This document shows positions 1,404 through 20,681 of a DNA stretch of 47,259 bases, in pieces; the stretch's first letter is position 1; every line of letters begins with the position of its first letter. The DNA is from a bacterium. Its GTDB lineage: Bacteria; Verrucomicrobiota; Verrucomicrobiia; Limisphaerales; UBA11358. Below the pieces are notes generated by a model. That model made no database searches, was not told the origin of the DNA, and was given only the letters and a program-made list of their open reading frames with translations. The stretch covers positions 1 through 47,259 of the forward strand of contig JAKALA010000028.1 in the NCBI GenBank assembly GCA_021813325.1, written 5' to 3'. A program made the translations under genes and the position numbers.

Positions 1404-4400
1404 TCAATAGCCGGCGGCGCCGATTGGCGCAAACTCGGGGATGCAAACCATGCACACCAGCGACAGGTTGGTGGCCCGTTTTGCGTAGATCGGGTTGGTG
1501 CAAGACAGTTCCCAAGCCAACGGCCTGGCCGTGATTGGCCAATCCGCATTGGCGGTGGAGGGCAACGGCGGCACGCCAGCGCAACAAACGAAAGTGGTGA
1601 TTCGCCCGGCAGGGATGGTTGACGCCTGCTGGTGCAAAATGCTTATGGCGTTGGTGCCATTGAGATAGCGGATCAGCGGAGTTTCAATCCGGTAACCCAG
1701 AATCATGGCGTCGCGACTGTTCAGCATGGCGGTGCCGCCCGAAAGCTTAGAGGACGCACTGGCGCTCTGATTCGTCTGCGCCGGCGCCGGTGGCGGCGGC
1801 TGGCTGCCATTCACAATCCGATAATATCGGGTCACGCCAAATCCGCCGGTCTGCGAACCGTCGTCGAAGAATTGGAACAGCGTGTATTTGGGCGAGGTAA
1901 ATGCGCCGACGTCGTAGGTGACGATGTTGGTAAAGGTGTTCCAAGACGTTGGCGGGAAACTATCGGTCCACTGCACGCGGAACACGTCATTGCTCCGGGC
2001 ATACCAAGTCAGGAGGAAGCCATAATTGCCATTGATATTGGTGTAAACAATACTGGCGGAAACCCGCAGAACGAAATCCACACCAAGGGCAAAACCAATC
2101 GACTGGGCGTTGGGGTTCTGCACGCCGAGGAAATATTCGTTGCCGGGCACAAAATAGGCCGGCGCCGAGGTGGTGCTCAACACGCTGATGCCGCTGCTGG
2201 CGTTGGCCAGCAGTTCAACGTCGCCCGCATTGACGATGGTCGGCGGGATGTTGGTGCTGAACCACACATTCGCCGGCAGATTGGTCGAGTAGAACAATGT
2301 GTTGGTGGCGATGATGGCATTGGTCGGCACCTTGACCGAGAACCAGGCAATGGCTCCGGGCAGCACGTTATTGGTTTGCGTATTGCCATCCGGCAACGGC
2401 AGCAATACCACCACATTGAAGTTGTTGGTCGCGCTCAGGGACTGCGAGTTGACCGCCCAAGGATTATAGTCCGTCACCTTGGTGGTGAAAACGTAGGATT
2501 GCCCCGCCTGCGCCACGGTGGGCGTCCAGGAAATAAGGCCCGTGCCGCTGTCAATGACCGCACCCGCTGGAGCTTGCAGCAAAGCGTAGGTCAAGGTGTT
2601 TGACGGGATGTCGGGATCAAACGCGGTGTTGGTCACAAATAGCGTGTCCGGCACGGTGACGTGCTGATACGGAATATTGGGCAGAATGGGCGGCAAGTTG
2701 GACTCGGTTACCACAATGGTGAAACTGTTGGTCACTGAATAGAGGGCGTTCGCCACGCTCACCAAAACAGTCTTGGTGGACGGGCCTTGCGCCTCGCTGG
2801 GTGTCCAATTGATGACGCCGCTGGCGGATACGGTCAGATTGCTCGGTCCGTTGACCAGGGCGTAGGTCAATGGCAGCGGCGGATTGTTAAGATCGGTGGC
2901 AATGCAATTGGTCGTGAACAGCGTGGTTTCCAGGTTGGTGAAGACATCGGTATTCGTCGGGAAGGAGAATACGGGCGGCAGCGCCACATAAAAGGCGGTG
3001 GCCTTGACCGTATATGTAACTGAATTGCTGGAAATATTGACGACCGATAGATACCAGTCGCCGTTGGTCAGCGCCACAGGAACGCTGTTGCTGCTGACGC
3101 CGATTTGCTCGAGATTGGTGCTGGGGCTGCTGATGTAATCATAACTCGACAGCGAAGGCAGGGGCAGTCCGTAGCGCGCCACCAATGACACCGGGCCGCT
3201 GGGATTCAACACTTCAAACAATACCGCCACCGGGTTGTCGCCGGCACCATTGGTGGTGACGGTGAATTTGTAGAAGTCCGAACCCGCCGAATTGGCGTTG
3301 GTGAATGGCACCGTATTGGTGAGCGTGATGATGGCCGGCGGCACGTTGGTGTTCATCAGCAGCGGGACCGCACTGACCGCCACACTGACCGTCACCGGCC
3401 CAAAATAGGCCATGGTGTCGTTGTTCGTCACGTTCACACCGAATGAGGCGTATCCAAAACCATTGGTGCCGCTGTTGAATTGATTGGTGGGATTAAAGAC
3501 GGCAAAACTATAACCAAACAAACCGCTATTGGTCACACCGTCCCAGACATTGGTCAGATAAACGGAGCCATTGACGGCGTTCGTCAGGGAGAAGGTTAAA
3601 TTACCGGTTTTGCCAAACACCTGTTTCAGATCCACACCGACCGGCGTGTTGGTGATGGTCAGCGCATGAGGCGCCGCCAGCCAGTTGTTGTATTCCTCCA
3701 AATCCGTATAGCCGTCGCCGTTACGATCATTGTTATTGCTCGGCACAAAGCGATCGGTGCCGAAAGTGATTTCCCAGAAATCCGGGATGCCGTCCTGGTC
3801 GGTGTCGAGATATCTGGAATTAGATGTCCCGCCATATTTTCCACCGCTACCGGCGTTGTAAATGGATTGGATCTCGGCCTGACTGAGTGGGCGACTGAAA
3901 ACACTCATTTCATCTAAATCCCCGACATAATTAAACTGCAAGTTGCCACCGGCAATAGTTCGCGCTCCCAAGAGTAAATTGCCGGTGGTTTTTGGCGTGA
4001 AAATTCCCAGGTTAGAACTAGCGACCACCACACCATTTCGGTAAATGAAAGCCATGCCGGTGGTTTTATCATAAGTTAATGCGACATACTGGTAATCAGA
4101 AGTCAGAATACCTCCCGCTGACGTAATCAGATGACTCGTATTGCCTGTATCCATGAGATTACCATACAGGCAACCCGGACCGCTCCCCGCAACTGCGGAT
4201 ATCCAAAAATGCACACCAGAATCAATTCCATCAAATTGCCATTCCAACAATGGAATTTGACTCGACAAATTTCCAGGACGAATCCAGCCGGCCAGGGTAA
4301 ATCCGGAACCCAGTCCCACGTTTAACGAAGTGGAAGCTGGCACTTGGACATACCCTCCAGCACCATTGAAATGAAAAGCTTTGCAAATCTCTCCGGCTCC

Positions 4401-7400
4401 ATAAGCAATCACTCCATTGGTGACGAATCCGTTGTTGGAACCAAAACTGTCATTTGCGTTATTTTCTCCTGACCACAAGGAAACCAATCCAGAAAACGGC
4501 GGTGTGGAAATCAACGTGCCAGTTTGCGAGCGGACTTTTGAAACCACGTCAACATCCACCAAATCACGTAATCCCAAGTTGACACCGGCGAAATCCAACA
4601 CTTTTTCGTAGGCCAGAAATGCTTCATCCGTCGGCACCGGCAACAGCGGGAAGGAATGTTCAAATTGCGTATAGCGATTGGTGAACATGTTCCAGCCGGT
4701 ATTGGCACCGTTTAAAATTCCGTTCAGGTCGCTGTCGATGAAGTTGTTGGTTTGGAAGATCCAAGAATTCGTTGAACCACCCCAGAACGCGATGTTGGTA
4801 ATGGCGTAGTTCGTGCCGAAGGTGGCCGTATCGGGTCCGGCAATGAGATAGTTGCACGCATAATTCAACTGATTGGTCACCGAATTTGAAACCGGGGACA
4901 TCCCGGAGAAAAGCCCCCAATTGTATATGACATTGTTTACGAAATCCAAGCTGAGGTTGTCACCCAGTGCCGGGTTGCCACTGTAATTGTTGGCATAAAG
5001 ATTATGGTGCAAACTCAAAGCCCCACTTCCGCCGCGTAATCCTGATCCCAGCGGAGGCGGGTTGTTGGTCACAAAAAGGCTGTCGGCTAAAATCGACCAT
5101 TGCACGGTGACGTTCGAAGAATTCACCGAAGACAATAAATTGTTCGCACTCCAGTTGGCAGAAACATGGTCCGCAATCACATTGACAACATTTGAAAACT
5201 GTAGAGCCTCCGCCGAATTCGCGTCCGGCCGCAAGCGGACGTTTCGAATGATCACGTCATGTGCGGACTGAACCGTTGTCATGTCTCCGGCTACCGACAC
5301 CCCGCCACAAGGCGCGGTCTGGCCCGCGATCGTCAGATACGAATTGGTAATCAGCAACGGTGTTGTGAGGTTGATAATGCCAGAGACGTCAAAAACCACG
5401 GTCCGGTTTGCAGCCCCAACCGCTTCCCGCAAGGTGCCCGGGCCGGAATCGGCCAGCGAAGTCACATGATACACATCGCCAAAGCGTCCGCCGATGGCGC
5501 CACCACCTGAACCAGCCGCTCCAGGGAACGCGGGGAAGTAAGCATTCGTCTCGATGGAAGCCACGATCGTGTAGTGCACCAGATGCGATTCATGGTTGGG
5601 CACTCCCAAATACCAATCACCCAGCAAATTGGTCATCACGCTGTTGGTGTAAACAAATATTAACTCCGGCCGGGTGCCAGAATTTTGGCTGGTTTGATAA
5701 AATGGAGGGGCCAGCGGCAAACGGTTGGTTTGAACGGTCAAATCCGCATCGCCATCGAGATTGTATAACTCAAATCGCAAACCCAGGTTGGTCACCCCGC
5801 CAGCCAGCATGTTGGTGACGGAAAAGCGGAAGAAATTGGTCAGAGCCGCGCCGGGTCCGGAGGTGAAGTTGACAGGCACCCGGTTCGTCAAGTCGATGAT
5901 TTTCGGCGGTGCATTTGTCATGTCCAGTTCCTTAGCCAGCACGGTGTAGCGTAACGGCCCGGCATCTCTCTTGATCACTCCAACATACCAGCGACCGTAA
6001 TTCAGTGGCACCGGCGATGAGTTGGTAAGGACATAAATATTCTCATCAAGATTGCTCACATTGAAGCTTCCGTAGTCGGAATTGGTCAAGGTGGGCAAAG
6101 GCGGTCCTTTGCTTATCACCAAGTCCGCATTGCTGCTCAAATCCAACAGTTGAAACGTCGCTTCGTAGATATTGGAACTGACATCAAAGTAGAAATAGCG
6201 AACCTCATCGCTGAAATTAGTGCTCAAAACACTTGAATACGGGATGCCATTGGTGAGCGGGGTAATGTCGTAATCCACCTCCAACACCACGGTCGCGGCA
6301 TGGGCATTGGTGTTCCGCACCCCCAAGTAATAAGTTTTCCCAGGCAACAACGGCAGTTCCGGCGGCAGCGCGTTGGCAACCAAACTTGGGAAACCAATCC
6401 CGTTAGTGGATCCGGTCAACAGAGTATAATCATTCGGGTTTGATTCGGTAGGTGGATTTGTCTGGTTAAACAGCAAATCCACGGGATACGTTGATGACAC
6501 CAAAATATTCGTCGCATAGTGCGCCCAGGTCGGCACGGTCACGGTGTAATAGACCGTTTGATTGGGTCCCACTGTGCTGGTCACGGGAGTTTCTGGCGGC
6601 AAAGTGGCGGCGACCACCGCATTGGATTCCAACACAAAGGTCAACTGCCAACTCAGCAAATCCGTGAAATTCGTGACATATTGCCCCAGCCGGTTATCCC
6701 ATACTTGCAAAGCCCAGTTGCCGTAAGCTGAAACCCCGGTCAAAGAGGACAATCCCTGTTCTGGCAAGTAATACAAACCATCGGGCGGCAATTTTGTAAG
6801 GCTGAACGAATCGAACAGCATTCCCGGTTGCAGCCCCATGATTTGCAGCGGAATGGAATTGGTGGTGGCGGTGAAGGAAAAGCTGTTCATCTGCCATTGA
6901 TTATTCCAACCAACCAAGTAATTCGTGGTTGATCCCAGCGAAATATAAGCTTCGGCCAACCCCAAGGCGGATTTTGTTGAGGCATCAAACTTACCGGTCA
7001 GGCCGTTGGTCACATTGGCTGAAACATTGTAAATGGCAAAATCTTCGGCGGGCGATATGGCGCGATTGTAAATGCTGATTTCATCCATTTTGCCACCGTA
7101 ATAATTGTTGGTGGCGCGGCTCATATCGCGCCCCAGCAAAACATCGCCATCCGTCTTGGGCACGAACACCCCCAGGTTGGTGCTGGCGACATTGGTGCCG
7201 TTCAAATACAGCGCGGCCAAACCGCTGTTGGTGTTATAGGTCAGGGCGACGTGCTGATACACGTTGCTTTGGAGCAGGCCGGGCGCGGAAAAGATTTCAT
7301 GCGAAGCAAAGTTAGTATCCACGATGTTCGCATACAGGCATCCCGCTCCTCCGACAAAAACATTCGGGTTGACCACCGAATTGGTGACCGAAACCCAGAA

Positions 7401-10400
7401 CTGAACCCCATTGGTCTGGATGTCATTTACTTCGACAACGCCATAAACTTTATTGGTCGCACTTGAATTGCAGACAAATCCGTTGTCATCCGCCAAAACC
7501 CAAAGGCCGGACTCCGTGTTCGTTCCGCCCAGCATGAATGTAAAATCATGGCTCCCGTCGCAGTTCACGGGCTGACCCGAAAGCCAGTTGGTATAATTGT
7601 CGGCGGCGCTCCCGCTGGACCAAACGAATGAATTGTTCAAGTTCGTCAGACCGATCCAAAGGTTATGATTCATCCCATTATAATTGGCGAAATTGTCATA
7701 AACCCAATTCTGCTCATTGGCCGTATCCACCGTAACGAGATGCCCGCCCAATTCATTGGCCCACATTTCCGAAACCGCCCAGTTGGTGGCGCCAAGCATG
7801 TAATAATAGTGGCCGGTCGCGCGATTCAGGAACGGTCCGGCCTCGATCACCAGATTGGTCACGGCGGCATTGGTCGGCACATGCGCGAGCCATTCCACCA
7901 ATGGCTGCGGCCTGGCCAGATTGGTGGGATTGATCCAGCCCTCAACCGTAAAGCCACCGCCTTGGCCGACATCCAAAGTCGGGGATTGCGGGATTTGGAC
8001 GTAGGTATTGGTGCCCGCAAATTGGAATTGCGTTCCCGCATCTTGAAACTGGAAAGCCTGGCCAACTTCGCCGTCGGGGAAATTAAAGCGACCGATTAGT
8101 CTGCCATTATTCCCATTATTTTCCGGGTCAGAACTGTCGCTGGCATTTCCTTCTCCCCGCCACCACCCCACTATGCCGGGACCTCTATACGAATAATTCA
8201 AGGTATATTTACCGCCGGGAGTGACGGGTATATTGCGCGTGATCGTCCCCATCCCAAGCGCCAAATAATTGCTGCCTGACTGGGATGTCGAAGGATCGGT
8301 AACGACACTCACCTGGTTGTTGGTTAACTTGACCACGTTGGTAACCGTGATGTAGATCTTCCCAATCGGCGTAAACACCGTGGAAACCGTCACTAGATTT
8401 GTCGGCACCGTCCAAAAACCGGCGGCGTCCACGATGTTGGTTGGGGCGCGATAATTTCCATTGGTCGAACTCTCAAAATCGCACAGCGAATAGTTGGTTA
8501 AATATTCCGACAAACTAAACGGTGGCTCGGCAAATTTAATGGGAACCTGCGTCAGATTGGTGTCATCCGTGAATTTCAAGTAAGAAAAGTTAGTCGCGGC
8601 GGTGGCGTAAACTTCCGCCAAACCATTCTGCGGTTCAGTCTTCCCAGGCATCTGCGGGATATCGCCGCCATCGTTCCAAAGTCCGCCATAGAAATAATCC
8701 ATGAAACCAAAATATTCATATCCATACACACCGCCACCGCCATTGTTGGGTTCACCGGGATACCAATTCCGGTAATTTGACGTGTCACCAGAAACCCAGA
8801 AAAAGTTTGTCATGTGATCCGCGGCCACAGTCGTGGTATCGCCTGCCAAGTCATGCAGGCCAATCCACAGATCCCGATTCACCCCGCCATAGCTCTTAAA
8901 GGTATTCCAAATCCAACCTTGCTCGCTCGCATTGCGAACCGTAGCCAAATGGCCTCCCAGAAGATCCGCCCAGGATTCGGAGTCCGTCCAATTGGCTTGG
9001 GCTAGAAGATAATAATAATGGCTGTTTGCCGGATTTTGAATCGGATTGGACAACAGCGCCACGCCCGCCGGGGCGGAATTCATCGTGTAAAGATTCAGAC
9101 TCGAACTCGTCACATAAGAACCGGCGCCGTTTGTATCCGTGCCGCCGCGATTTTCCATCAACAACACCCGCCCCCCCGTTGGACTGACCAGGGTGAACGT
9201 GTAATCTGAAATACGTGGCGATTGGACGACAATCCCCACATTCACCGACGAAACCAACTGGGTTGCCGCCACAAAAAGTGACGAATTGGCAACCGCATCA
9301 TCGGGCAAATTGCCGGTGATCGGATTGGTCGTATAAGTGTAGGTGTTCTGCGTGACATCGCCGATGCCGAGGGTAGCCGATAAAAACACCTTCGCCTCCT
9401 GGCTGGGATTAGGATTATAAATGCCGATGAAATAAAGCCCCTTGTCCAACGGCGGACCCACGGAAATCGAATTGCCGGGAAACGTGCCTCCCGGATACGA
9501 TCCCAGCACACAGTTGGTCAAATCCGCTTCCAGATCGTAATCCGTCAACGTCGGCTCATTGCCGAATTTTTCATACATTTGCAAGGGCGCCGGGGCAATG
9601 GTGGGCGGCAGGTTGGTGGCAAAGAAACTCAGGTTGGTATAGCCGGCCGGCACTTCCACGTAATCCACAAACCAACCCAGCGGCGGCACGGTCACCACGA
9701 TGCCCGGCTCGGTCAGTTTGCGATGCGGCTGGATCAGCAACTGCAACTGGCTCACCCGCCCGGTTTGCGTCTGGGAATCATCAAGCTCGCTCAAAATCCA
9801 CGGCCCCAGCGCGGATTGACCACGGTAATCCGCCAGATTACCTGGCCCGTCGGAATGACGGGTGCCCAGCATGGGATTCCGGCTGTCATCATACACGAGC
9901 GGAAATGTGCCGTAGGTGTTGCCCAAACCATCGTGAGTGTTCAGCACCACGGATTTGGCGCCAAAAGTGAGCGAACCCACCAGATCGCCGAAATTTTGAT
10001 GCTCATTCAAGTTGGTGACCGTGACCTTGCCAATGTCCATCGGATAAATGGCGAGCGCGAAAATGTTGGTCACTCCGGGATGCGCATTGTTGCCGTCGGG
10101 AATGTTCACCGGCAGCAGCAGTCCATTGACAATCTGATTGCCATTTTTATCGAGCAGGCTGAAGGGCGTTGAAGTAAACACCGGCAGGAACGCGTATTCC
10201 GCCGCCATGTGATCCTCGGATTTGACGCCAATGTAATAAACGTCGCCCGGCGCCGAATTCGTGTAAAACGCGTATTCCGTTCCGCCTTGAGTGAGCGATG
10301 AACGCGATCCCGCCGCGCCGCTGAGACAGTTGGAAATAACCACCGGATTCAGATTGGTGAGCGACGGATCTGTGCTCACATACAAGTCAATGTCCGCCTG

Positions 10401-13400
10401 TGGCCGCGTAGCATTCGCCGCGTCAGCCGCAAAAACGCCCATGCGCGGAACGGACAATGTGCTGGATTGAAAGGTGATGAAGGCCGCGTTGGTATAATCG
10501 GCCGTCGGTCCCGTGTTCGTCACCACATAGAAATGCCACTGGTTGGTCTGGCCGATCGTCACCTGCCCGGCGCTGTTCCACATGGTGTTGGCGCCCAAGG
10601 CCAGCGTATTCGTCCCCAACAACGGCGAACTCGCCCCGGCGAATTGATCAAACAGCGGGCTGTTGGTGGTGGCAATGAACGTGACCAGTTGATCCCCGGT
10701 GGGATTCGCATAACTCACCATCGGCGCCACGGAACTGATCGTATCCGTCAATTCGCCCGAGCCACAGGTCACGACCAGCGCGTAATCCTGAACCACCCCG
10801 TTGGTGTGCGCCGTCACCGCATTGACGTTGACCGACCGGCCCACAACCGTGATGGAATAACTCCCCGCCAGCAGCGGCGGCAGGATGATGTTCTCCACGT
10901 TGTTGATCGTGTCCAAATTGGGCGGCGTATTGGTGTCCCACGGCAGGTTGTAGCCCACGTCGGGCGAAATATCGTTGCCGAAATAAACCTCGCCTGTGTC
11001 CAGGTTGGTGATGATCAGGTCCAGATTGTTGACCAGTTTGATGGCGGCCGCGGGATCGCCGCAGGGATCCGTCCATACGAGCGTTGCCTGGAGCGGCACA
11101 TATTGCGCGCTATTGTTGGTGTTCAGGGTCAGGACGTAGGTGTGGCTGTCGCCCGTGGCCAAGGCATCCGCCGAACTTTGATCCTTGAAAAACAGCGGCA
11201 GGGGCGTTGTTCCATCCGGCTTCGTGCTCACATTGGTGGAATTAAACGGCAGCGAATTGGCAATGTTCACCAGGCCCCAGCCCTGGAAATTGATACTGTT
11301 GGTGAACGCCAGCGAATAACTCCCCACCGGCCGGGAGCCATTGATAAGCATGGCCTTCAACAGCGCCGGACTCGGGGTCATCTGCAATTTGTTGGTGAAA
11401 TAATCCTGGATCAGCGCCAGCACGCCGGACACTTCCGCCGCCGCCATGCTCGTGCCGGTTTCATAGCGGTAATATTCCGGGGGCGTGCCCAAGCCATCGT
11501 CCATGCCCTGCAACACCGTTTCCAAATCGCCCACGTCGTTGGTGGTGTAAAGATACACGGTCAAATCGTAATTCACCGGCGCGTTGGTGCTGTTGCCCAC
11601 CGCAAAGTAAAACCCGCTGTTCTGGTAAGCGGCCATGGCCGTGCCTTGATCGCCGGGAATATAAAAACTGTTTTTGTCCGTCTTGTAATCGTAAGTGGTG
11701 GTGGTGGGATAATCACTCTGCCGGAGGTAAATCGGCAGATCGGCCGGAAACGTGGTGGAGAACCGGTTCGTCGTGATCACGATCGCCACGCCCACCGCAT
11801 TCGGCGGCACCGAAACGCCATAAAAATTCAGCGTATTGGTATTCACGATCTGGCCGGTGTAAGGCGTGGCCGAAACATTGGTCGGATTGAAATACGCATT
11901 CGTGTCCCACTGCTGCGAACGGGTGGAAACGACGAATGATCCCGGCGCCACCACGTCCGGCTTGAAGCGGCCAAAATCGCCTTCGGTGCCAATGCCCACG
12001 TTGCCGCGGCCGGAATAGGCCGCCACCTGCGAACTTGAATCCGTGGCCAGCTCCCAATACGCCGTCTGGTTGGTGATGCCGGCATCCACCGTCGTCACGA
12101 TGTTCGTAATGTCGCGCGGCAGTTCCAACGCGCCCACCGTAATCACATTCTTGGCGGTGCCGGGCGAAAGAATGGTCTCCGCCGAGCCACCCGTGCCGCG
12201 GTCATTGCCGCCGCCCCGGTTGCCCGCCGGGAACACAAACAAAACCGGCTGGGAACCCGTGCTTCCGGGCACGGCATCACGCGTGGCGGCATCATAACAC
12301 GCCGCCGCCAGATCGTATTGGCCGGCATCGCCGTAGTTCCAACTGTTGTTGGAAATCAACGCCCCCTCCAGCGCCGCATTCGTTTGGAGCACGTAATCCG
12401 AATGCCCATAATTCAGCGAATAGAGTCTGGCCTTCGGCGCCATGCCGCGAAACTGACCGTTGGTGCCCGGCATGATCGAGCCTTGAGCATTGGTCACCGT
12501 CAGGGATTCGGCGCCGTCCCCGGCAATGATGCCGGCGACGTGCGTGCCGTGGCCGTCGGTATCCGTCAAATCGGCGGGCAAACCCAAAACCCGTCCGGTC
12601 AAATCGGGATGCGTCGCGTCAATGCCGGAGTCGTTCACCGCCACGAGCACGTTCTGCCCGGAAAGATCGAGGAAATTTGTGGTGGTGACTGAATCATCCG
12701 TCAGGCCCACGGTCGGACGCGACAAATCGTTCGCGGCAATCCGCTGATGCACCGGTTCGATCCACTGCACGATGGGCAGCCGGGCCAGCGTGGTCCAATC
12801 CTTCGGCGGCAAGACCCGCAGCACCGGACCAAACGGCGAAACGTCCTGACCAATGACCTTCACCCGCAAGCCTGCCAATTGTTTTTTCGTCGCGCTGATG
12901 TCGCCCGCGAACAAGCCGACTGTCAAAGCCGTTCCGGGTTTCAAGGGCGTTTCGTCCACCGCCGAACCCAGCAAGGATGATTGCACCTTGTAGTAAGGTT
13001 CGTAAGGCAGCACCGCCTGCACCATTTGGTTTTCGGCCAGCACCGCCGCGCCCGCCGCCGAGAGCTGCACGAGATACGCGTTGTTGGGAATATACGATAC
13101 AATCAATCCGCCGGCGCCGGCGATCACGCGACGAAATTGGCCATCAATCACGCCTTTCGCCTGAACGATGTAAGCGCCCGGTTCCGCGTCGGCCTGCAAC
13201 TGCTTGGGAATGGACAAAGCCAGATTTTTCGTGGTATCCAAAAACGCGTTGGCCAGCAAAATGGCCTGCGGGGTTTTGATCAATTCGTCCAGGCTTTTGG
13301 TGGTGTTGCTCAACCGCAGCGTTCGCGGTGCCGTGTTGGTCGCCGTCACGCTGTTGGCGGGCGCCGCAGCCACCGTGGCGGCCACGGAAACATTGGTGGT

Positions 13401-13553
13401 GGCGATCTGATTCGTCGCCGCCACGGTCACGGGCGCGACCGCGTTGGTCGGGGCGTTCATCGCGGTGGGCGGAGCATTATTGACCGCCAACCAGAAAAAC
13501 CCGCCTGCCGCCAGCAGCAGCAGTCCCAAAGCAATCCAAATACTACGTTTCAT
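1404..13553 (-). CDS. Giant secreted S8 protease / lectin / LamG / pectate-lyase-like protein
   Basis: This encodes 4049 residues, predicted to be exported. The start is the ATG at 13553, which opens on a signal peptide (MKRSIWIALGLLLLAAGG); the frame extends 44 codons upstream through a hairpin and looks non-coding there. The S8 subtilase domain has Asp308 (NDSGID), His335 (GHGTHVAG), Asn445 (PAGNRG) and Ser702 (GTSMAAAE). A P-domain lies near 1160-1280. A second P-domain is split: about 1402-1483, 1655-1680 and 2260-2308. C-type lectin domain 1 (about 1510-1652) has WIGL, EPN (1601-1603) and WND. LamG-like domain 1 (about 1794-2174) contains lectin domain 2 (about 1892-2048). PPC-like beta modules follow. 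The pectate-lyase-like helix spans about 2671-3016, LamG-like domain 2 about 3022-3235, and a DxDxDG calcium-type tail about 3245-3298. Ig/cadherin-like modules lie near 3530-3710. The last ~110 residues are atypical (Cys, Arg). Thr-Asn pairs are very frequent. A role in secreted polymer capture or degradation is an inference; possible export by the adjacent pseudopilus system is a guess. Confidence 0.85.
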   Translation of the reverse strand: MKRSIWIALGLLLLAAGGFFWLAVNNAPPTAMNAPTNAVAPVTVAATNQIATTNVSVAATVAAAPANSVTATNTAPRTLRLSNTTKSLDELIKTPQAILLANAFLDTTKNLALSIPKQLQADAEPGAYIVQAKGVIDGQFRRVIAGAGGLIVSYIPNNAYLVQLSAAGAAVLAENQMVQAVLPYEPYYKVQSSLLGSAVDETPLKPGTALTVGLFAGDISATKKQLAGLRVKVIGQDVSPFGPVLRVLPPKDWTTLARLPIVQWIEPVHQRIAANDLSRPTVGLTDDSVTTTNFLDLSGQNVLVAVNDSGIDATHPDLTGRVLGLPADLTDTDGHGTHVAGIIAGDGAESLTVTNAQGSIMPGTNGQFRGMAPKARLYSLNYGHSDYVLQTNAALEGALISNNSWNYGDAGQYDLAAACYDAATRDAVPGSTGSQPVLFVFPAGNRGGGNDRGTGGSAETILSPGTAKNVITVGALELPRDITNIVTTVDAGITNQTAYWELATDSSSQVAAYSGRGNVGIGTEGDFGRFKPDVVAPGSFVVSTRSQQWDTNAYFNPTNVSATPYTGQIVNTNTLNFYGVSVPPNAVGVAIVITTNRFSTTFPADLPIYLRQSDYPTTTTYDYKTDKNSFYIPGDQGTAMAAYQNSGFYFAVGNSTNAPVNYDLTVYLYTTNDVGDLETVLQGMDDGLGTPPEYYRYETGTSMAAAEVSGVLALIQDYFTNKLQMTPSPALLKAMLINGSRPVGSYSLAFTNSINFQGWGLVNIANSLPFNSTNVSTKPDGTTPLPLFFKDQSSADALATGDSHTYVLTLNTNNSAQYVPLQATLVWTDPCGDPAAAIKLVNNLDLIITNLDTGEVYFGNDISPDVGYNLPWDTNTPPNLDTINNVENIILPPLLAGSYSITVVGRSVNVNAVTAHTNGVVQDYALVVTCGSGELTDTISSVAPMVSYANPTGDQLVTFIATTNSPLFDQFAGASSPLLGTNTLALGANTMWNSAGQVTIGQTNQWHFYVVTNTGPTADYTNAAFITFQSSTLSVPRMGVFAADAANATRPQADIDLYVSTDPSLTNLNPVVISNCLSGAAGSRSSLTQGGTEYAFYTNSAPGDVYYIGVKSEDHMAAEYAFLPVFTSTPFSLLDKNGNQIVNGLLLPVNIPDGNNAHPGVTNIFALAIYPMDIGKVTVTNLNEHQNFGDLVGSLTFGAKSVVLNTHDGLGNTYGTFPLVYDDSRNPMLGTRHSDGPGNLADYRGQSALGPWILSELDDSQTQTGRVSQLQLLIQPHRKLTEPGIVVTVPPLGWFVDYVEVPAGYTNLSFFATNLPPTIAPAPLQMYEKFGNEPTLTDYDLEADLTNCVLGSYPGGTFPGNSISVGPPLDKGLYFIGIYNPNPSQEAKVFLSATLGIGDVTQNTYTYTTNPITGNLPDDAVANSSLFVAATQLVSSVNVGIVVQSPRISDYTFTLVSPTGGRVLLMENRGGTDTNGAGSYVTSSSLNLYTMNSAPAGVALLSNPIQNPANSHYYYLLAQANWTDSESWADLLGGHLATVRNASEQGWIWNTFKSYGGVNRDLWIGLHDLAGDTTTVAADHMTNFFWVSGDTSNYRNWYPGEPNNGGGGVYGYEYFGFMDYFYGGLWNDGGDIPQMPGKTEPQNGLAEVYATAATNFSYLKFTDDTNLTQVPIKFAEPPFSLSEYLTNYSLCDFESSTNGNYRAPTNIVDAAGFWTVPTNLVTVSTVFTPIGKIYITVTNVVKLTNNQVSVVTDPSTSQSGSNYLALGMGTITRNIPVTPGGKYTLNYSYRGPGIVGWWRGEGNASDSSDPENNGNNGRLIGRFNFPDGEVGQAFQFQDAGTQFQFAGTNTYVQIPQSPTLDVGQGGGFTVEGWINPTNLARPQPLVEWLAHVPTNAAVTNLVIEAGPFLNRATGHYYYMLGATNWAVSEMWANELGGHLVTVDTANEQNWVYDNFANYNGMNHNLWIGLTNLNNSFVWSSGSAADNYTNWLSGQPVNCDGSHDFTFMLGGTNTESGLWVLADDNGFVCNSSATNKVYGVVEVNDIQTNGVQFWVSVTNSVVNPNVFVGGAGCLYANIVDTNFASHEIFSAPGLLQSNVYQHVALTYNTNSGLAALYLNGTNVASTNLGVFVPKTDGDVLLGRDMSRATNNYYGGKMDEISIYNRAISPAEDFAIYNVSANVTNGLTGKFDASTKSALGLAEAYISLGSTTNYLVGWNNQWQMNSFSFTATTNSIPLQIMGLQPGMLFDSFSLTKLPPDGLYYLPEQGLSSLTGVSAYGNWALQVWDNRLGQYVTNFTDLLSWQLTFVLESNAVVAATLPPETPVTSTVGPNQTVYYTVTVPTWAHYATNILVSSTYPVDLLFNQTNPPTESNPNDYTLLTGSTNGIGFPSLVANALPPELPLLPGKTYYLGVRNTNAHAATVVLEVDYDITPLTNGIPYSSVLSTNFSDEVRYFYFDVSSNIYEATFQLLDLSSNADLVISKGPPLPTLTNSDYGSFNVSNLDENIYVLTNSSPVPLNYGRWYVGVIKRDAGPLRYTVLAKELDMTNAPPKIIDLTNRVPVNFTSGPGAALTNFFRFSVTNMLAGGVTNLGLRFELYNLDGDADLTVQTNRLPLAPPFYQTSQNSGTRPELIFVYTNSVMTNLLGDWYLGVPNHESHLVHYTIVASIETNAYFPAFPGAAGSGGGAIGGRFGDVYHVTSLADSGPGTLREAVGAANRTVVFDVSGIINLTTPLLITNSYLTIAGQTAPCGGVSVAGDMTTVQSAHDVIIRNVRLRPDANSAEALQFSNVVNVIADHVSANWSANNLLSSVNSSNVTVQWSILADSLFVTNNPPPLGSGLRGGSGALSLHHNLYANNYSGNPALGDNLSLDFVNNVIYNWGLFSGMSPVSNSVTNQLNYACNYLIAGPDTATFGTNYAITNIAFWGGSTNSWIFQTNNFIDSDLNGILNGANTGWNMFTNRYTQFEHSFPLLPVPTDEAFLAYEKVLDFAGVNLGLRDLVDVDVVSKVRSQTGTLISTPPFSGLVSLWSGENNANDSFGSNNGFVTNGVIAYGAGEICKAFHFNGAGGYVQVPASTSLNVGLGSGFTLAGWIRPGNLSSQIPLLEWQFDGIDSGVHFWISAVAGSGPGCLYGNLMDTGNTSHLITSAGGILTSDYQYVALTYDKTTGMAFIYRNGVVVASSNLGIFTPKTTGNLLLGARTIAGGNLQFNYVGDLDEMSVFSRPLSQAEIQSIYNAGSGGKYGGTSNSRYLDTDQDGIPDFWEITFGTDRFVPSNNNDRNGDGYTDLEEYNNWLAAPHALTITNTPVGVDLKQVFGKTGNLTFSLTNAVNGSVYLTNVWDGVTNSGLFGYSFAVFNPTNQFNSGTNGFGYASFGVNVTNNDTMAYFGPVTVSVAVSAVPLLMNTNVPPAIITLTNTVPFTNANSAGSDFYKFTVTTNGAGDNPVAVLFEVLNPSGPVSLVARYGLPLPSLSSYDYISSPSTNLEQIGVSSNSVPVALTNGDWYLSVVNISSNSVTYTVKATAFYVALPPVFSFPTNTDVFTNLETTLFTTNCIATDLNNPPLPLTYALVNGPSNLTVSASGVINWTPSEAQGPSTKTVLVSVANALYSVTNSFTIVVTESNLPPILPNIPYQHVTVPDTLFVTNTAFDPDIPSNTLTYALLQAPAGAVIDSGTGLISWTPTVAQAGQSYVFTTKVTDYNPWAVNSQSLSATNNFNVVVLLPLPDGNTQTNNVLPGAIAWFSVKVPTNAIIATNTLFYSTNLPANVWFSTNIPPTIVNAGDVELLANASSGISVLSTTSAPAYFVPGNEYFLGVQNPNAQSIGFALGVDFVLRVSASIVYTNINGNYGFLLTWYARSNDVFRVQWTDSFPPTSWNTFTNIVTYDVGAFTSPKYTLFQFFDDGSQTGGFGVTRYYRIVNGSQPPPPAPAQTNQSASASSKLSGGTAMLNSRDAMILGYRIETPLIRYLNGTNAISILHQQASTIPAGRITTFVCCAGVPPLPSTANADWPITARPLAWELSCTNPIYAKRATNLSLVCMVCIPEFAPIGAAGY

Positions 13554-13714: not shown

Positions 13715-16700
13715 TCAATCCGGTGGCAGCACGTTGTAACTCTCCACCGCCGTCGTGTAATTGGTGCCGGTGGCCGTGACGTGCTTGTCCAGCCGGATCA
13801 CGGCGCGAATGGCGCTTTCCGCCACCACCTGATAATTGGTCACCATTTTGAAATAATTCCCGCTCAACACCGTGCTGTTCTGCGCGGGTTTCAACGCTTG
13901 TCCGTAGCACGTGACCAGATACCGCGGCGCGCTGGGACACGACAATAGGGACATCATCTGCTGCGGCAGCCATTCGTAAACCTGGTCGCTGATGCCGTTG
14001 TTCAATTGCGACCGGCTTGACCGGTTCAAGTAAGGCGACCGGTCAGTAAGCGCCGGAACGGATAAAATATCCCCTTTCTCTTCAAACGTGCCCACCACGC
14101 CATCGGCGTTGGTGTAGATGGCCCGCGCGCTGTTGATGTTGGTTACCAGATAGTTGAGCGTGGAATAATCGCCTTCCAGGCCGGCCGGCTGGATGACCAA
14201 ATTGGCGAACGTGGCCGGATCTATTGAAATCCGGGCGTTTTTTACGTTGTTGGAAAGCACCTCCATGCCGCTGAACACCGCCGACCACGCGGCGAGATTG
14301 TCTTGATTGACCGAGAGCTGTCCACGCGTGGAGTTTGGGTTCAAACCCGTGGTAAACACGTCAAACAACATCCGATCCAGCAACGGCGCGCTGTTGGCGG
14401 CGTCAAAAACGTCGTAATCGCCCGTCCACGCCAGCCACGTGTTGGTGCCGGAATTAATCCGGTTGCCCTGCAATTGGTGCAGCACGTTCTGCGATTTCAG
14501 ATAAACCGTCTGCCACGGCGTGCCGCGATGCACCCGGCCAATCCAACCCTCGGTGGGATATTTGTTCGTCGGAAAATTCCAGCCATCCGAACTGGTGACC
14601 AGCGGATCCTTATAAATGGCATTCCACGCGTTGGTGAAATTGTAATCCAAGCTATCGAAGCCGATGGGCGCGGCTTTGCCCCACGGCTGATAACGTTCGT
14701 TCAAAACTGTGTAGCGCGGCATGGGAACCGCCGAGTTGTCCTGGATTTTGTTGAGCCCCGACAGCAAGGCGCCCTTGTTTTCCGAGCCAGTGTAGTTCAG
14801 ATCGCTGGCCAGATAATGCACCAGCGGATCGTTGGCCTGCCAGCCGGTGTAATCGTAAATCATTGCCGTGGGCGTGTAAGGCAATTGCACCACGGAATTC
14901 GTCGTATAATAATTGGGATTCATGCTTCCCAAGGCCAACCCAAGGAAATGTTTAAAGCCGTCGATCTCTTCTTGGGGAGTTAATCCAGTCACGCCCGTTA
15001 ACCCATTCCAATAACCCTGATTGTTTCGATATGGCGGACTGCCTATCGAAGCATTCCACTGGTTATCAATCCCAACCGGCACCACTGAGTTTTTTTTCAA
15101 AAATACGCTCCACATGTTATCGTAGCCCGGCGCGCTGCTGGTGGTCTTCAACACCGAACTGAGGTAGCGGTTCTTGTTTGGGCCGTTAAAATGAACGTAA
15201 TCGATGACGTGATACACGCCATTGGAAAAGTCCAGCATGGACAGTTGAAAACGGTTCGTGGTCAACAGGGTGAAGTTGGGCAGATCAAAGGATGTCCGGT
15301 TGGTTTCCCATCCGTAATTGAATGAATCTGGATAAAAGCCCGCCACTCCCGGCGGCGCTGAGCCGAAATACAAATCCGCGTTGGTCAACAAAATCGCAGA
15401 CCGCTGCAATGGAACTTTGAAGGAAGGTTCTGCATTATTGGCGTAGCCCGGCCATTTGCCGACGTAATAGGTATTGCCCATGACGTAGCCGGAAAATGCC
15501 CGCGGCGGCAGACCGTAATCGTTGGTGATCGCCATGGAAAGCGTGTCGCGAACATTGATATACACCGGGTTTGGATACGCGTTGGTGTAGGAATTCCAGC
15601 ACTCCACGCCAATCGAGTTGCTGATGGAAAACGAGTAGAGTTGGTTGGTAAACTGCAAATGAGTTGGCACCGAGGTATCGCCTGGTTTCCGGCCCACCTG
15701 CAATTTGCGCGTTACTTCCACCACCGTCTGCATGCCCAGTTTGTTGAAGTTGGGAAATCCTTTCCTCGCTCCGATGATCCACGGCACCCCGTAAACATTC
15801 ACAAACTGCCCAAGGTATTGAATGGGCTGATACAAGGGCGGAATGTTGGTAATCGCAGGCGAGTAATCATCAAACGGCGGGTCAAGCTGGTGGTCCTTCT
15901 CATTGACCACGGTATTTAGCAAACCGCCGCTGACGGGATTGGTGTAGCCCACCACGAACGCGTTTCCGGCCCGGTCATGCTCGAACATCGGGCGATACAC
16001 GTTGGGATAAAACTCGTTGGTCGAGGCCTCGTAGAGGTTGGCCGCCAGTTGCAAAATGCGGTTGACCGCCGGCGAATAGACATACTGACCGTTCACCCGC
16101 ACCGGAATGTTCGTAATGCTGACCACCGGGATTTCATTGGTCATGCCGAAATACGGCAGATTCGTCAGGCCCAGCCCGGAGGGATCATTGGCAATGACGT
16201 TGAAATTAACGTCGCGATGATAATAATTCGTGTTGATCCCATAAATCGAACTGAGGTAATTGGACGGGTTGCGCCGGAACCACATCTCCGAGTAAAGCCG
16301 CAACATCTGGTCCGCCGCCGCCACAAAAAAGTCGCGCGGACGCCACGGCACCTGGTTGGTTTCCGCGCCGGGAATGATTGTCACGCCGGTGACGACGCCG
16401 TAATTGTTATACCGCACCACCGCGTTGGAATAATTCAGGTTGATCTTGCCGCTCTCCGGCTCGGAGGCCGTGCCCAATTGCGCCATCAGCCGGTAAAACG
16501 TGTAACGATCGTAAGTGGATTTGCCCAGGCCCGCCTGCATCAGCCGATTGGTGAAGCTGTTGACACCGCTTGAAGCCGACATGGCGGGATTGAACAGATC
16601 GCTCGGCAAATTGTAAAATTGGTTGGTGCTCTCCGCCCCCGCCCACGGTAGCGAGGCGTTGTCCGCCCGCGGCACGTCGGCGTTGGTGTTCACGGTAATT

Positions 16701-17863
16701 TGCCAGGGTCCGTCGCCGTAACCGTCAATATTGTCAAAGGCAAACGCGCCGTTGAACGAGTTGTTGGGGAAGAGTTGGTTGACGCTGGCCAGCGAATTGT
16801 AGCGGTAGCCATAACGCCAGGACAGCAGCGCACGGGCATCTTCGAACGCCGAGCCTTTATTGTCGATATTTGGCTGGAAATAAATGTAGGGGTTCACGGT
16901 GGGGTTCACCGAGGTCGGCGAATCCCACTCGTTGGTATTCAAGTCGGCCAGGAACGCCGCCAGATTGAGTTCCCACGTGCCCACGCCCTGATTGCGCACA
17001 TAGCCGTCGCGGACCGAAAGCGTCTGGTTCAACACCTGATTGTGAATGGCGTTTAAATCCAGCGAATTGCCGATGGGCTGCGCCATAAACGCGTAACGGG
17101 CAATGAACGGATTGTTCGGCCCATGCGGCTGGTCCGGATGCTCCAGCACGCCCACCCACTCGGGATCGCCGGTTTCAAAATGATAAACGTAATTATTTTT
17201 GGCATCCACAACCGGTCGCCCCAGGTTGTCCAGATCCACCACCCAGCCGTTCGTTTCAAAGCGGCCGTTGCGGTTCAAATCGAGGTAATACCGGAAGTCA
17301 TAGCCGTAGCCGCCGCTGGCATTATTGGTGCGGATGTAAACCGGCGCCCGCGGCAGATATAGGAGATTGGCAATGTTTTGAACCTGATCAACCGGCGACA
17401 GCGGACCCGCCACACCGGTATTATAAAGGTCGTAGTTAACATTCGTGGGATTGGCCGGTCCGGAACCGTTTGGCCCGCCAACGCGATTGAATCCATACCC
17501 ATACTCGTAATTCGTCGAAACCAACAGGCGCTGGTTGTAGGCGGCCAGGTTGGTGGAACTCGTGATGTTGGCGGCGATCTGGGCTTCCGCCATGGCCAGC
17601 GCGGAGTCCGTGGCCAACCGGGCCATGGCGGTATCGGTGGTGGTGCTGACGGCATCGCGCTGACGACGCGACAACGCGATGAACGCCATGGCCATCACCA
17701 GCGTCACCGCCAGCATGATGAGCGTGATCACCAGCGCCATGCCCTCGCGCCGACGGCGCGAAGGCGGCAGGTTAAAGGCTGAAGGTTGAAGGGTTGGCAA
17801 CAGCGTCCGGTTTCTGCGAAAAACCGGCCACTTGCCACCTTCAACTGGAAACTTATTTTTCAT
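13715..17863 (-). CDS. Oversized GspK/PilX-like minor pseudopilin (1382 aa)
   Basis: This is the last gene of the pseudopilin operon. Its ATG overlaps the stop of the preceding gene (ATGA, 17860-17863). Residues 36-41 (RRRREG) are followed by MALVITLIMLAVTLVMAMAF, which resembles a prepilin peptidase site in front of a single membrane helix. There is no Glu at +5, as in GspK, the pseudopilus tip protein of type II secretion. GspK is normally about 300-350 residues; this one is roughly four times longer, with a long Asn/Tyr-rich exterior whose middle I do not recognise. The position after G-, H-, I- and J-like genes supports the GspK assignment. The large 'Verru_Chthon cassette protein A' family of Verrucomicrobium and Chthoniobacter is a possible relative, from memory. 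The first 40 residues are partly encoded by heptanucleotide repeats. The downstream giant protein may be a client, but this is only inferred from adjacency. Confidence 0.7.
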   Translation of the reverse strand: MKNKFPVEGGKWPVFRRNRTLLPTLQPSAFNLPPSRRRREGMALVITLIMLAVTLVMAMAFIALSRRQRDAVSTTTDTAMARLATDSALAMAEAQIAANITSSTNLAAYNQRLLVSTNYEYGYGFNRVGGPNGSGPANPTNVNYDLYNTGVAGPLSPVDQVQNIANLLYLPRAPVYIRTNNASGGYGYDFRYYLDLNRNGRFETNGWVVDLDNLGRPVVDAKNNYVYHFETGDPEWVGVLEHPDQPHGPNNPFIARYAFMAQPIGNSLDLNAIHNQVLNQTLSVRDGYVRNQGVGTWELNLAAFLADLNTNEWDSPTSVNPTVNPYIYFQPNIDNKGSAFEDARALLSWRYGYRYNSLASVNQLFPNNSFNGAFAFDNIDGYGDGPWQITVNTNADVPRADNASLPWAGAESTNQFYNLPSDLFNPAMSASSGVNSFTNRLMQAGLGKSTYDRYTFYRLMAQLGTASEPESGKINLNYSNAVVRYNNYGVVTGVTIIPGAETNQVPWRPRDFFVAAADQMLRLYSEMWFRRNPSNYLSSIYGINTNYYHRDVNFNVIANDPSGLGLTNLPYFGMTNEIPVVSITNIPVRVNGQYVYSPAVNRILQLAANLYEASTNEFYPNVYRPMFEHDRAGNAFVVGYTNPVSGGLLNTVVNEKDHQLDPPFDDYSPAITNIPPLYQPIQYLGQFVNVYGVPWIIGARKGFPNFNKLGMQTVVEVTRKLQVGRKPGDTSVPTHLQFTNQLYSFSISNSIGVECWNSYTNAYPNPVYINVRDTLSMAITNDYGLPPRAFSGYVMGNTYYVGKWPGYANNAEPSFKVPLQRSAILLTNADLYFGSAPPGVAGFYPDSFNYGWETNRTSFDLPNFTLLTTNRFQLSMLDFSNGVYHVIDYVHFNGPNKNRYLSSVLKTTSSAPGYDNMWSVFLKKNSVVPVGIDNQWNASIGSPPYRNNQGYWNGLTGVTGLTPQEEIDGFKHFLGLALGSMNPNYYTTNSVVQLPYTPTAMIYDYTGWQANDPLVHYLASDLNYTGSENKGALLSGLNKIQDNSAVPMPRYTVLNERYQPWGKAAPIGFDSLDYNFTNAWNAIYKDPLVTSSDGWNFPTNKYPTEGWIGRVHRGTPWQTVYLKSQNVLHQLQGNRINSGTNTWLAWTGDYDVFDAANSAPLLDRMLFDVFTTGLNPNSTRGQLSVNQDNLAAWSAVFSGMEVLSNNVKNARISIDPATFANLVIQPAGLEGDYSTLNYLVTNINSARAIYTNADGVVGTFEEKGDILSVPALTDRSPYLNRSSRSQLNNGISDQVYEWLPQQMMSLLSCPSAPRYLVTCYGQALKPAQNSTVLSGNYFKMVTNYQVVAESAIRAVIRLDKHVTATGTNYTTAVESYNVLPPD
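17769..17796 (-). repeat. Heptanucleotide repeat tract in the 5' end of the GspK-like gene
   Basis: On the plus strand the tract reads AGGTTAA, AGGCTGA, AGGTTGA and then the degenerate AGGGTTG. It lies inside codons for the leader peptide, before the membrane helix. Because the unit is 7 bp, gain or loss of one copy would shift the frame. Confidence 0.6.
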
Positions 17864-18813
17864 TGGTAAGCCGAGAGATCAATGTTCGGAATGGACACGC
17901 GCTGACGGAACAAATGCACGGCCCCCGATTGGTTCTTGAGGAAAAGACTGCGCCGGTCATTGGGCGGTGCCGCCGGCACGTTGGTTTGGAGCGATTCGGC
18001 CCGGGCCAAGGTGCTGTCTTCCATCACGCCCATTTCCAACACCACCGTGGCGGGCACGGTGTTGCTATACATGAAAAGCTGCGCCTCGCCGTAGCCGTCG
18101 CTGATGCCGCTGTCCTTGAGATAATCATAAAAACGGGTATTCACCACGTTGGTGTCGCCGTTGATTATCTGGTCATTGATCAAAAATCCCTTGGGATCTT
18201 CCGGTCGCACGGTGAGATGCACCACGCCATCGATCACATGGCTCAGGTTGGTCCACCAATCGACCCCGTTCAGTTCACTCGTAAATTGGTTATACAACGT
18301 CCACGGGGAATAAACGGCATTGGTTTCCGCATAAAACCGGTAAAGCGGATACAGCGGACTGGAGGAAGCCGTGTTCACAACGTAAGCCGCGGCCGTCCAT
18401 TTGGTGTTTTGCCGTCCCAGCACGAAGAAGTATTGCAGCAGATTGGTGCGCGCCACCGTGCTGCCGGGCAGGCTTTGCAACAATGGCTGGGCGGCATTGG
18501 CCAGCACAAAGAAATTCACCGGCGCCCGCACGTTTGCAGAGTAATTGCTCACTCCGCCGGACGGCGTCATGGTGTGCAGATCTGACACCATCAAATCCAT
18601 GGCCGCGCGGCTGCCTTCCAGCACATCGGTCTGCGTCACGGCCGAACGAAACGCCTTTTGCGTGCTGCTGAACACCGCCATCAGCACCAGCACGATCAAC
18701 GATAAAATCCCCACCACCACCATCACTTCCACCAGGGAGAAAGCGTGGCGCCCGGACGTCGGCCGAAGCGTCGCGCGTTGGCGGTCAGGATGGGTTGTCA
18801 AAGCTCGGCTCAT
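17860..18813 (-). CDS. GspJ/PilW-like minor pseudopilin
   Basis: This 317-residue protein has a 24-residue leader ending in GRHA, then FSLVEVMVVVGILSLIVLVLM. That is a prepilin peptidase site with Ala at -1, Phe at +1 and Glu at +5, followed by the hydrophobic helix. The C-terminal exterior is mixed alpha/beta in character and I recognise no further domain. In type II secretion, GspJ belongs to the I-J-K tip complex that starts the pseudopilus. The assignment to J rather than another minor pseudopilin rests on gene order (after I-like, before K-like) and length. The stop overlaps the K-like start by 4 bases and its own ATG overlaps the I-like stop (18810-18813), so the three genes look translationally coupled. 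It probably corresponds to one of the small 'Verru_Chthon cassette' proteins. Confidence 0.75.
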   Translation of the reverse strand: MSRALTTHPDRQRATLRPTSGRHAFSLVEVMVVVGILSLIVLVLMAVFSSTQKAFRSAVTQTDVLEGSRAAMDLMVSDLHTMTPSGGVSNYSANVRAPVNFFVLANAAQPLLQSLPGSTVARTNLLQYFFVLGRQNTKWTAAAYVVNTASSSPLYPLYRFYAETNAVYSPWTLYNQFTSELNGVDWWTNLSHVIDGVVHLTVRPEDPKGFLINDQIINGDTNVVNTRFYDYLKDSGISDGYGEAQLFMYSNTVPATVVLEMGVMEDSTLARAESLQTNVPAAPPNDRRSLFLKNQSGAVHLFRQRVSIPNIDLSAYQ

Positions 18814-19829: not shown

Positions 19830-19834
19830 TCGGC

Positions 19835-20674
19835 TTAGTGAATCTTTTGCTCCAGCAACGTGGCACGTCCCGTCAACCGGTCGATGCGGATGACGTGGAA
19901 CATTGAGTTGGTGCTATTGCCGGGCGGAATTTCAGTGAACGTCGCCGGCCCAAACTGAAGCGATTTGTTCGCATCCATGGCATAAGCGGCGCTGCCCTGA
20001 GCGAGCGGGATATACTCATCGTGATCCACCGTCTTCAAACCATCCACGGTTAACTGGCCCTGATAGTTGAAAGCGATGTAGGGCAACCAGGCGTTGTTAT
20101 CAAAATGGTCTTCGGTCGGAAACGGCAGGGTATTGGTGTAGTTGAAACAGTAAATGGGATACGTGACGTTGGGCACGAGGGAATAATCGGTGATCGGAAA
20201 ATAGGGGTTGGGATAGAGATAGTTCAGGCTGAATTTGTTGGTGCCAATGAAGGCTCCATCCGGCAACGATTTCCATTCACCAATGTAGCGCGGCTTGCCC
20301 GCTCCCGGCTGATCGCCCACGGAGCGCAACGAGAGAAACGTGTAACCGGTGTATTGCTTGTCCAGCAGATTGGTGCCCTGCATTTTTTCCTGCGGCGTGA
20401 GCTTGCTCCACCAGTTGTTTTGAAACAGCCAGAAATTTGCCGGCACAAACACCATGTAAACCGTGGTGCGGCGGCTCACGGCCAGTTGCCGCGCGTGGCC
20501 GATGTCGTCCAACAACTGCCGGGTGGCGCTGATTTGAATATTTCCTTTGCCGATGTTTTTCAGCGCCGGCACCGTCAATGCCGCCAGAATGCCGAGAATG
20601 GCGATGACCACCAATAATTCCAGCAGTGTAAAACCGCCGGCCCGGGCAAACCGCATTGGACGAATGGCTTTCAC
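19835..20674 (-). CDS. GspH-like minor pseudopilin
   Basis: This 279-residue protein begins with a short basic leader (MKAIRPMRFARAGG) and then [20 protein letters not shown], a textbook prepilin methylation motif with Gly at -1 and Glu at +5. The following ISATRQLLDDIGHARQLAVSRRTTVYM segment resembles GspH/FimT, where 'ARSEAIRRNQ'-type helices follow the membrane stem. The exterior ends in YRHVIRIDRLTGRATLLE-like sequence (here FHVIRIDRLTGRATLLE), again typical of H-type pseudopilins. It lies 7 bases after the Cys-leader pseudopilin and 5 bases before the I-like gene, on one transcript. It should reside in the inner membrane and enter the pseudopilus tip after cleavage by a prepilin peptidase, which is not encoded in the window. 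Confidence 0.75.
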   Translation of the reverse strand: MKAIRPMRFARAGGFTLLELLVVIAILGILAALTVPALKNIGKGNIQISATRQLLDDIGHARQLAVSRRTTVYMVFVPANFWLFQNNWWSKLTPQEKMQGTNLLDKQYTGYTFLSLRSVGDQPGAGKPRYIGEWKSLPDGAFIGTNKFSLNYLYPNPYFPITDYSLVPNVTYPIYCFNYTNTLPFPTEDHFDNNAWLPYIAFNYQGQLTVDGLKTVDHDEYIPLAQGSAAYAMDANKSLQFGPATFTEIPPGNSTNSMFHVIRIDRLTGRATLLEQKIH

Positions 20675-20681
20675 AAATTGA

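Follow-up and report, generated by a model that had tools for sequence, protein, structure and literature searches.

Most inferences of domain insertion come from individual structures. Binding-type domains inserted in a domain of a large secreted protein are familiar from RTX adhesins, in which a split domain carries a PA14 insert, and from subtilases with a PA domain. These inserts are single-level and belong to other families than the nest described below. An ECOD survey of 2026 (PMC13114784) reports that 20% of multidomain proteins carry insertions and describes nesting to six levels in cyanobacterial RNA polymerase, where single hybrid motifs from one family make up 33 of the 59 insertions. 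An earlier note on the DNA analyzed here had stated that the families concerned occur as contiguous units, which, given that figure of 20%, holds as a rule but not as a law. The giant protein treated here shares with the insertions surveyed the A1-B-A2 layout and recursive nesting. It differs from the polymerase nest in stacking four different families within an enzyme whose N-terminus is signal-like, and in having sites that, across an order, are empty in some members and carry various fillers in others. Nested insertion is already known; what is unusual here is the four stacked families and the reused sites. No paper on the nested subtilase family was found in our literature searches.

The best structural and sequence matches to the catalytic part were the KP-43 and SubHal subtilases (PDB 1wmd and 5fax), which have the same S8 fold and C-terminal beta domain. 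Their chains of 433–434 residues align without a 149-residue insert and without nested modules, whereas the protein here has 4,049 residues. We conclude, with a probability of roughly 0.85 and on both the anatomy and the insertion history, that the nesting is genuine and came about through insertion into loops, a few sites being used repeatedly. In this reading, the protein is a KP-43-type subtilase, probably secreted, with a conserved linear spine of propeptide, S8, P-domain 1, R repeat and P-domain 2. The beta-rich spine domains carry a few insertion-tolerant loops, where new, mostly lectin-like domains enter. Inserted domains host further insertions in turn, leaving the spine intact while the surface gains modules. 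The outcome in the window is S8[R] and P-domain 2[C-type lectin 1][D6[LamG[C-type lectin 2]]], brackets enclosing what is inserted.

The giant gene and its split protease domain

The window is the whole stretch of DNA analyzed, 47,259 nt in length. No tandem repeats were found in it, and it held 11 promoter-like sites (8.1 expected) and 29 terminator-like sites (21.4 expected, sd 4.1). The giant gene is a single open frame of 4,049 residues on the minus strand, with its ATG at 13553 and its stop at 1404–1406; the coordinates 1404–13553 had been correctly recorded before, with the strand left unstated. All features of this gene and of the genes directly upstream are likewise on the minus strand. 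Residue numbers follow P0001, which begins at a GTG 44 residues upstream of the ATG. The protein is probably secreted and has a signal-like N-terminus. A conserved propeptide-like region follows (12687–13238, labeled by position), and its in-house profile was found in 67 of 69 proteins. The source draft genome comprises 4.28 Mb in 123 contigs and a genus-mate, G012, has matches on two contigs, both of which would suit an assembly or binning artefact that joined genes. The frame is open over 12 kb, however, and the D6[LamG[lectin]] arrangement described below occurs in ten relatives besides the window, which makes such an artefact scarcely credible.

The comparison set comprised 108 proteins: that of the window, those of 68 loci, and 39 more that were left from 79 loci of a second relative search once 40 duplicates had been removed. 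The 68 loci were picked by hand from the matches listed in the S8 search, ten of them for absence of the S8 insert. As the loci were hand-picked and the relatives were the best 80 of 283, proportions in this set are not prevalences. Taxon labels among those best 80 were chiefly Limisphaerales, Verrucomicrobia ("subdivision 3" in many cases) or Pedosphaera; the few others included a "Methylacidimicrobium", an "Akkermansia" and several that read simply "bacterium". The S8 part was matched at E ≤1e-20 in 132 of 146 genomes searched, the source genome counted. A 760-position model spanning the S8 C part through P-domain 2 gave matches at E 1e-30 in 8 of 240 genomes sampled across the phylum, again with the source genome counted. 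Since the other seven matches cover only 209–238 of the 760 positions, the complete spine appears to be characteristic of the source bacterium's order.

The protein belongs to peptidase family S8 by its Pfam PF00082 score (114.8 bits, cut-off 21.8). As the earlier note had observed, this domain is split by a segment ahead of its serine: PF00082 matched as two stretches, profile positions 1–215 and 230–288, lying 420 bases apart. The N part (11922–12674) carries the Asp and His. The C part (10770–11474) carries the catalytic Ser and the KP-43-type C-terminal beta domain. Between the in-house S8 pieces lie 149 residues (589–737; 11475–11921), directly ahead of GTSMA. The Asp, His and Ser, located by motifs that we take to be those of the triad, were invariant in 62 alignment rows (D205, H232 and S599 of alignment A3). 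Contiguity of the catalytic domain, which is usual but not defining, is broken by the insert, and the interrupted S8 is a variation inside the peptidase S8 family. Both S8 pieces were present in 106 of the 108 proteins; 91 had the insert and 15 had 18–40 residues between the pieces, ten of these 15 having been selected for that feature.

An AlphaFold2 model of the S8 region (62 rows) reached a pLDDT of 80.9 and a pTM of 0.81. It aligned to KP-43 (1wmd) over 403 of 434 residues at 2.3 Å (Z 39.2), C-terminal beta domain included. This match runs from model residue 179 to 827 and spans the insert, so the two S8 halves form one fold through it in the prediction. A profile of the 91 inserts matched the R repeat found between the P-domains of the same proteins (hhalign probability 96.4%, E 1.1e-9), and the insert is accordingly called R. 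An initial name for it, PPC-like, was dropped, no PPC match appearing in any of 32 inserts at E 0.1 in Pfam. Searches of the insert family gave no convincing Pfam match across these 32 members and nothing among PDB sequences. The Pfam scans of 32 S8 inserts and 29 members of the site A module U (below) returned single-member matches only, at best E 0.006; one of these, to Ntox22, was taken as chance.

Two insertion sites and a four-deep nest

P-domain 1 (9726–10151) is uninterrupted and its in-house profile was found in 69 of 69 proteins; it was named through hhalign to the pieces of P-domain 2 and by eye. An R repeat, recognized by in-house profile (9399–9695), separates the two P-domains. 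P-domain 2 is cut twice, as previously noted, into an N piece (residues 1443–1526; 9108–9359), a middle strand piece (residues 1698–1724; 8514–8594) and a C piece recognized by in-house profile (residues 2300–2356; 6618–6788). The only P-domain stretch matched by Pfam in the giant protein lies in P-domain 2, P-domain 1 not being among the listed matches. This PF01483 match (29 bits, cut-off 21; E 1.2e-6) comes from the N piece only. Corresponding segments of five relatives gave two PF01483 stretches in four cases and one in the fifth. Against P-domain 1, hhalign probabilities were 1.5% for the N piece, 0.2% for the middle, 92.1% for the C piece and 86.9% for the three joined. The middle strand (...FTEDTNL..PIKFA.PPF-like) was found by profile search at a lax threshold, with lowest scores of 14–20 bits, between the outer pieces in all 89 proteins whose N and C pieces were readable (19 of 108 were left out of P-domain 2 counts). 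Its constant presence there implies two insertion sites in P-domain 2.

Both sites, A and B, were seen empty (15 proteins each) and filled among these 89 proteins. Site A measured 4–12 or 33 residues in its 15 empty cases, 103–139 residues with module U in 59 proteins and ~380 residues in six; its contents were otherwise D6[LamG] or other material. Site B measured 7–40 residues in its 15 empty cases, then 142–195, 343–460 and 554–608, in steps of ~10, 150, 380 and 580. It held D6, D6[LamG], D6[LamG[lectin]], tandem units, a lone C-type lectin (L090) or unnamed content. Contents track the length steps with exceptions: L065 and L075 (554–557 residues) carry D6 plus D6[LamG] without a lectin. Relative L140 has 33 residues at site A and 28 at site B, a nearly uninterrupted P-domain 2, whereas its sister L064 (SH-aLRT 100) has U and D6[LamG]. 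Comparison with relatives placed a C-type lectin in site A of the window (lectin 1, 8595–9107), where the closest sisters, L048 and L050, have U. The earlier note had overlooked this additional C-type lectin, which occupies P-domain 2 at its first cut. Module U matched no known family in a Pfam scan of 29 members or a PDB sequence search; an initial name, CUB-like, was rejected on PDB sequence matches of E 0.16 or worse and on Pfam matches from single members only. Site B of L097 and L111 holds fillers of 623 and 852 residues without LamG, that of L111 resembling by eye an NHL-type propeller array.

Site B of the window opens with the N half of a DUF642-like domain, D6 (8178–8498; positions 34–80 of the 147-position uninterrupted-D6 profile). 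The N half of LamG1 follows (7890–8177), then C-type lectin 2 (7428–7835; Pfam PF00059), the C half of LamG1 (7020–7409) and the C half of D6 (6789–6998; profile positions 89–145). The halves of LamG1 align to residues 1–84 and 92–212 of LamG2, which is contiguous in this protein, with scores of 181 and 272 (the highest among 300 shuffles were 84 and 57), and Lectin_C matches between them, bearing out the earlier report of a LamG that holds a C-type lectin. PF13385 (Laminin_G_3) scored 110.1 for the protein and 69.7 for the nest alone (cut-off 27.6), and PF00059 (Lectin_C) scored 46 in two stretches (cut-off 22.6). The splitting of D6 by LamG1 is an additional level that had gone unnoticed, and the nest is four deep: P-domain 2, D6, LamG and lectin. 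The D6 of the window was not among the Pfam matches listed for DUF642 (PF04862); that of L095 scored 14.2.

Across the set, D6 was split in 54 cases and uninterrupted in 31. The N half ended at profile position 80–92 of 147 in 53 of the 54 split copies. Their fillers were LamG (50), an NHL propeller (2; L058 and L066), a legume lectin (1; L169) and another segment (1; L080). D6[LamG[lectin]] occupied site B in 11 of 87 tree members, the window and ten relatives. Tandem D6[LamG] units were present among relatives. In L161 the domain inside LamG matches DUF642 (29, cut-off 27), giving D6[LamG[DUF642]]. The LamG of L089 has two inserts, one of them a legume lectin, and L085 shows the same profile pattern.

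A model of the nest (28 rows) was of middling quality (pLDDT 67.1, pTM 0.59); alignment A2 took in 27 of 52 prepared rows and includes L134, whose propeller D6 filler is misaligned. Ten-residue means were mostly 70–96 for the P-domain pieces, D6, LamG and lectin 2, and below 50 for lectin 1 (residues 84–258). The modeled LamG is one jelly roll, aligning to 5hon_A over 194 residues at 2.3 Å (Z 22.6) from model residue 393 to 779, through the lectin. The LamG1 halves fold together in this prediction. LamG filled the fold matches listed for the nest. These were largely clostridial neurotoxin binding domains, the VIA rows covering model residues ~357–786, the D6/LamG region. The fold is a common lectin-like one, seen also in arabinanase domain 4 and, by sequence, in pentraxins, and the matches were not taken to indicate function. 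The earlier note had proposed structure prediction as a check that split halves pack together. The models bear this out for S8 and LamG1, while the halves in P-domain 2 and in D6 appear joined on sequence comparison.

An ordinary multidomain protein, with misleading profiles and each apparent half a small domain of its own, would account for the weak likeness of the P-domain 2 pieces to P-domain 1, the poorly modeled lectin 1 and a module U without known family. Yet relatives contain uninterrupted D6 and LamG and the nearly uninterrupted P-domain 2 of L140, the split D6 copies have one common break point, and the S8 and LamG models each show a single fold through an insert. This alternative is therefore very unlikely, and insertion into loops remains our reading of the anatomy.

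Beyond P-domain 2, from residue 2357 onward, the protein otherwise consists of end-to-end repeats, a lyase and an Ig-like domain. Residues ~2714–3064 (4494–5546) match pectate lyase (9buj, E 8e-29) and VexL (6fi2, E 1e-10), with no Pfam match for this region among those listed. This pectate-lyase-like domain had been described as cut by a LamG. That description did not survive: the barrel is intact, and the uninterrupted LamG2 (3834–4490; PF13385 and junction comparison) replaces the linker between the barrel and the DTDQDGIPDFWE tail. The tail is of calcium-binding type (3654–3809, labeled by eye) and its in-house profile was found in 10 of 69 proteins. From the lyase end to the DTDQDG-type tail, eight of nine relatives compared have 17–54 residues without LamG; the window and L049 have 233 residues with LamG. 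The lyase is cut near profile position 110–113 by about 200 residues in L048, L062 and L070, the inserts of L048 and L062 being different. On these alignments, the lyase hosts inserts in relatives and not, strictly, in the window. The earlier count of at least four interrupted domains nevertheless stands, though with S8, P-domain 2, D6 and LamG1 as its members; three of the four originally named hold, the uncut lyase giving way to the overlooked D6. At the C-terminus (1404–1800), the last 131 residues, after ...RYYRIVNGSQ, appear unlike the C-termini of five relatives compared, one of which is ended by its contig; they may be a young or shifted tail.

Insertion history across relatives

Changes at the sites were counted on a spine tree of 87 tips, a quick tree with SH-aLRT support only and 21 of 84 inner branches weak, from which L142 and L146 were omitted for a missing core piece. 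Minimum change counts, which cannot distinguish gain from loss and which gene-tree error, paralogy or transfer may have inflated, were 16 for the contents of site A and 31 for those of site B. The lowest counts in 50 label shuffles were 26 and 45. As the observed counts lie below all 50 shuffles, site contents partly follow descent, yet they change often. Scored as empty or filled, site A required 5 changes and site B 9. Counts for single features were 7 for the S8 insert, 16 for LamG in D6 at site B, 7 for D6[LamG] at site A and 2 for the lectin in LamG.

An alternative history, in which the common ancestor already had the full nest through one or two ancient insertions and later change was mainly loss, would need no repeated use of sites. 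The blindness of the counts to gain versus loss suits such a history, as do the two changes needed for the lectin in LamG and the presence of the S8 insert in 91 of 106 proteins. It fits poorly with LamG, NHL propeller and legume lectin at the same D6 site, with two different sequences in one lyase loop (L048 against L062), with the presence in the window of lectin 1 at the place taken by U in its sisters, and with the occurrence of tandem D6[LamG] units and D6[LamG[DUF642]]. We regard this history as unlikely. Different domains at one site are the strongest sign of refilling. Growth by loop insertion "rather than by end-to-end fusion", as first proposed, is thus upheld in its first part by the empty and filled sites, the pair L140 and L064, and the models. 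The second part is too strong, since ~1,115 of 4,049 residues are inserted by the domain map, with LamG2 in the lyase linker counted, and the protein from residue 2357 onward is largely an end-to-end array.

Inheritance of the modules was compared with that of their hosts. The nearest LamG lay in the nearest host for 8 of 39 units. Over 30 common hosts, the same agreement was found for LamG at site B in 8, the propeptide in 19, the S8 insert in 13, the R repeat in 12, the P-domain 2 pieces in 11 and the D6 halves in 14, and for U in 14 of 22. By this measure LamG may be inherited more loosely, which favors exchange only mildly; short spine pieces score nearly as low, and our conclusions do not rely on the test. 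Two proteins of this test set have LamG units at both sites, mutually nearest in L165 and not in L074. When the source genome was searched with D6, LamG and lectin, matches outside the giant protein fell in one frame only (contig C45, 795 aa), which argues against a burst of copies in that genome as the source of the modules.

Upstream pilin-like genes and possible function

In the minor pilin operon with PilX and PilY1, minor-pilin-like genes precede one very large multidomain protein. The layout here is similar, but with a subtilase as the large protein. Six pilin-like genes (13715–22345), four with a prepilin motif match, lie directly upstream of the giant gene. The remaining two, at 18810–19829 (339 aa) and 13715–17863 (1,382 aa), were assigned only by weak cassette matches and by eye. 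PilC/GspF-like, PilB/GspE-like (two) and PilT-like genes follow (23099–28967; gene annotation by sequence), and two adjoining gene pairs upstream overlap by 4 bases. At 29129–41866 the window holds IGPD, TPR, ABC transporter, beta-CASP hydrolase, phosphofructokinase, PPK2, carbohydrate phosphorylase and phosphoglucomutase-type genes.

The linkage is conserved. Of the 53 named loci with 4 kb or more of upstream sequence, 52 carry on the same strand homologs of both the 1,382-aa gene and its next upstream neighbor, and 51 carry those of the following two; the two outermost pilin-like genes cross-match and so were not counted. Among 20 longer upstream regions, several from genomes of the 53-locus set, all six pilin-like genes were present in 20 and all four motor genes in 12. 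One of the remaining regions has PilC at a contig end, and seven have no motor gene within the stretch compared. The best NCBIfam matches of four upstream genes (13715–20674) were to Verru_Chthon cassette D, B, C and A, one each. Scores fell far below the curated cut-offs (A 22.9 against 332.3 bits, B 21.3 against 51.4, C 28.2 against 256.5, D 37 against 70), and only stretches of 36–62 residues near the N-terminus match the models (TIGR02600, 02598, 02599 and 02596 for A–D). By these matches the genes may form a divergent branch of the Verru_Chthon cassette, on which our literature search found no paper.

Given the recurrence of pilin-like genes upstream across loci, the leading hypothesis is delivery by a pilus- or type II-like machine, although such linkage by itself does not establish it. 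Export or display of the giant protein by a machine of the preceding pilin-like genes, as their linkage suggests, is possible at slightly less than even odds. The odds are about even that the protein acts as a substrate-targeted protease, in which the loop lectins would keep it attached to glycans or matrix, S8 would cut protein and the R insert beside the Ser would shape access. More doubtful is a wider proposal of a "socketed" scaffold, in which fixed-position loops in P-domain, D6, LamG and lyase would be reloaded recursively from a shared, mostly lectin-like pool, with the spine and its place behind the pilin cassette fixed. Such a pilus-linked protease would evolve its target range by module swaps, favored by some route of recombination between module copies.

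Within one bacterial order, the same sites of one protein occur empty, filled, occupied by different modules and occupied recursively. Natural pairs such as L140 and L064 allow testing of which loops tolerate insertion, in what order the nest was built up and whether the hosts still fold. The family suggests a route by which an enzyme may gain binding modules with its linear order undisturbed.
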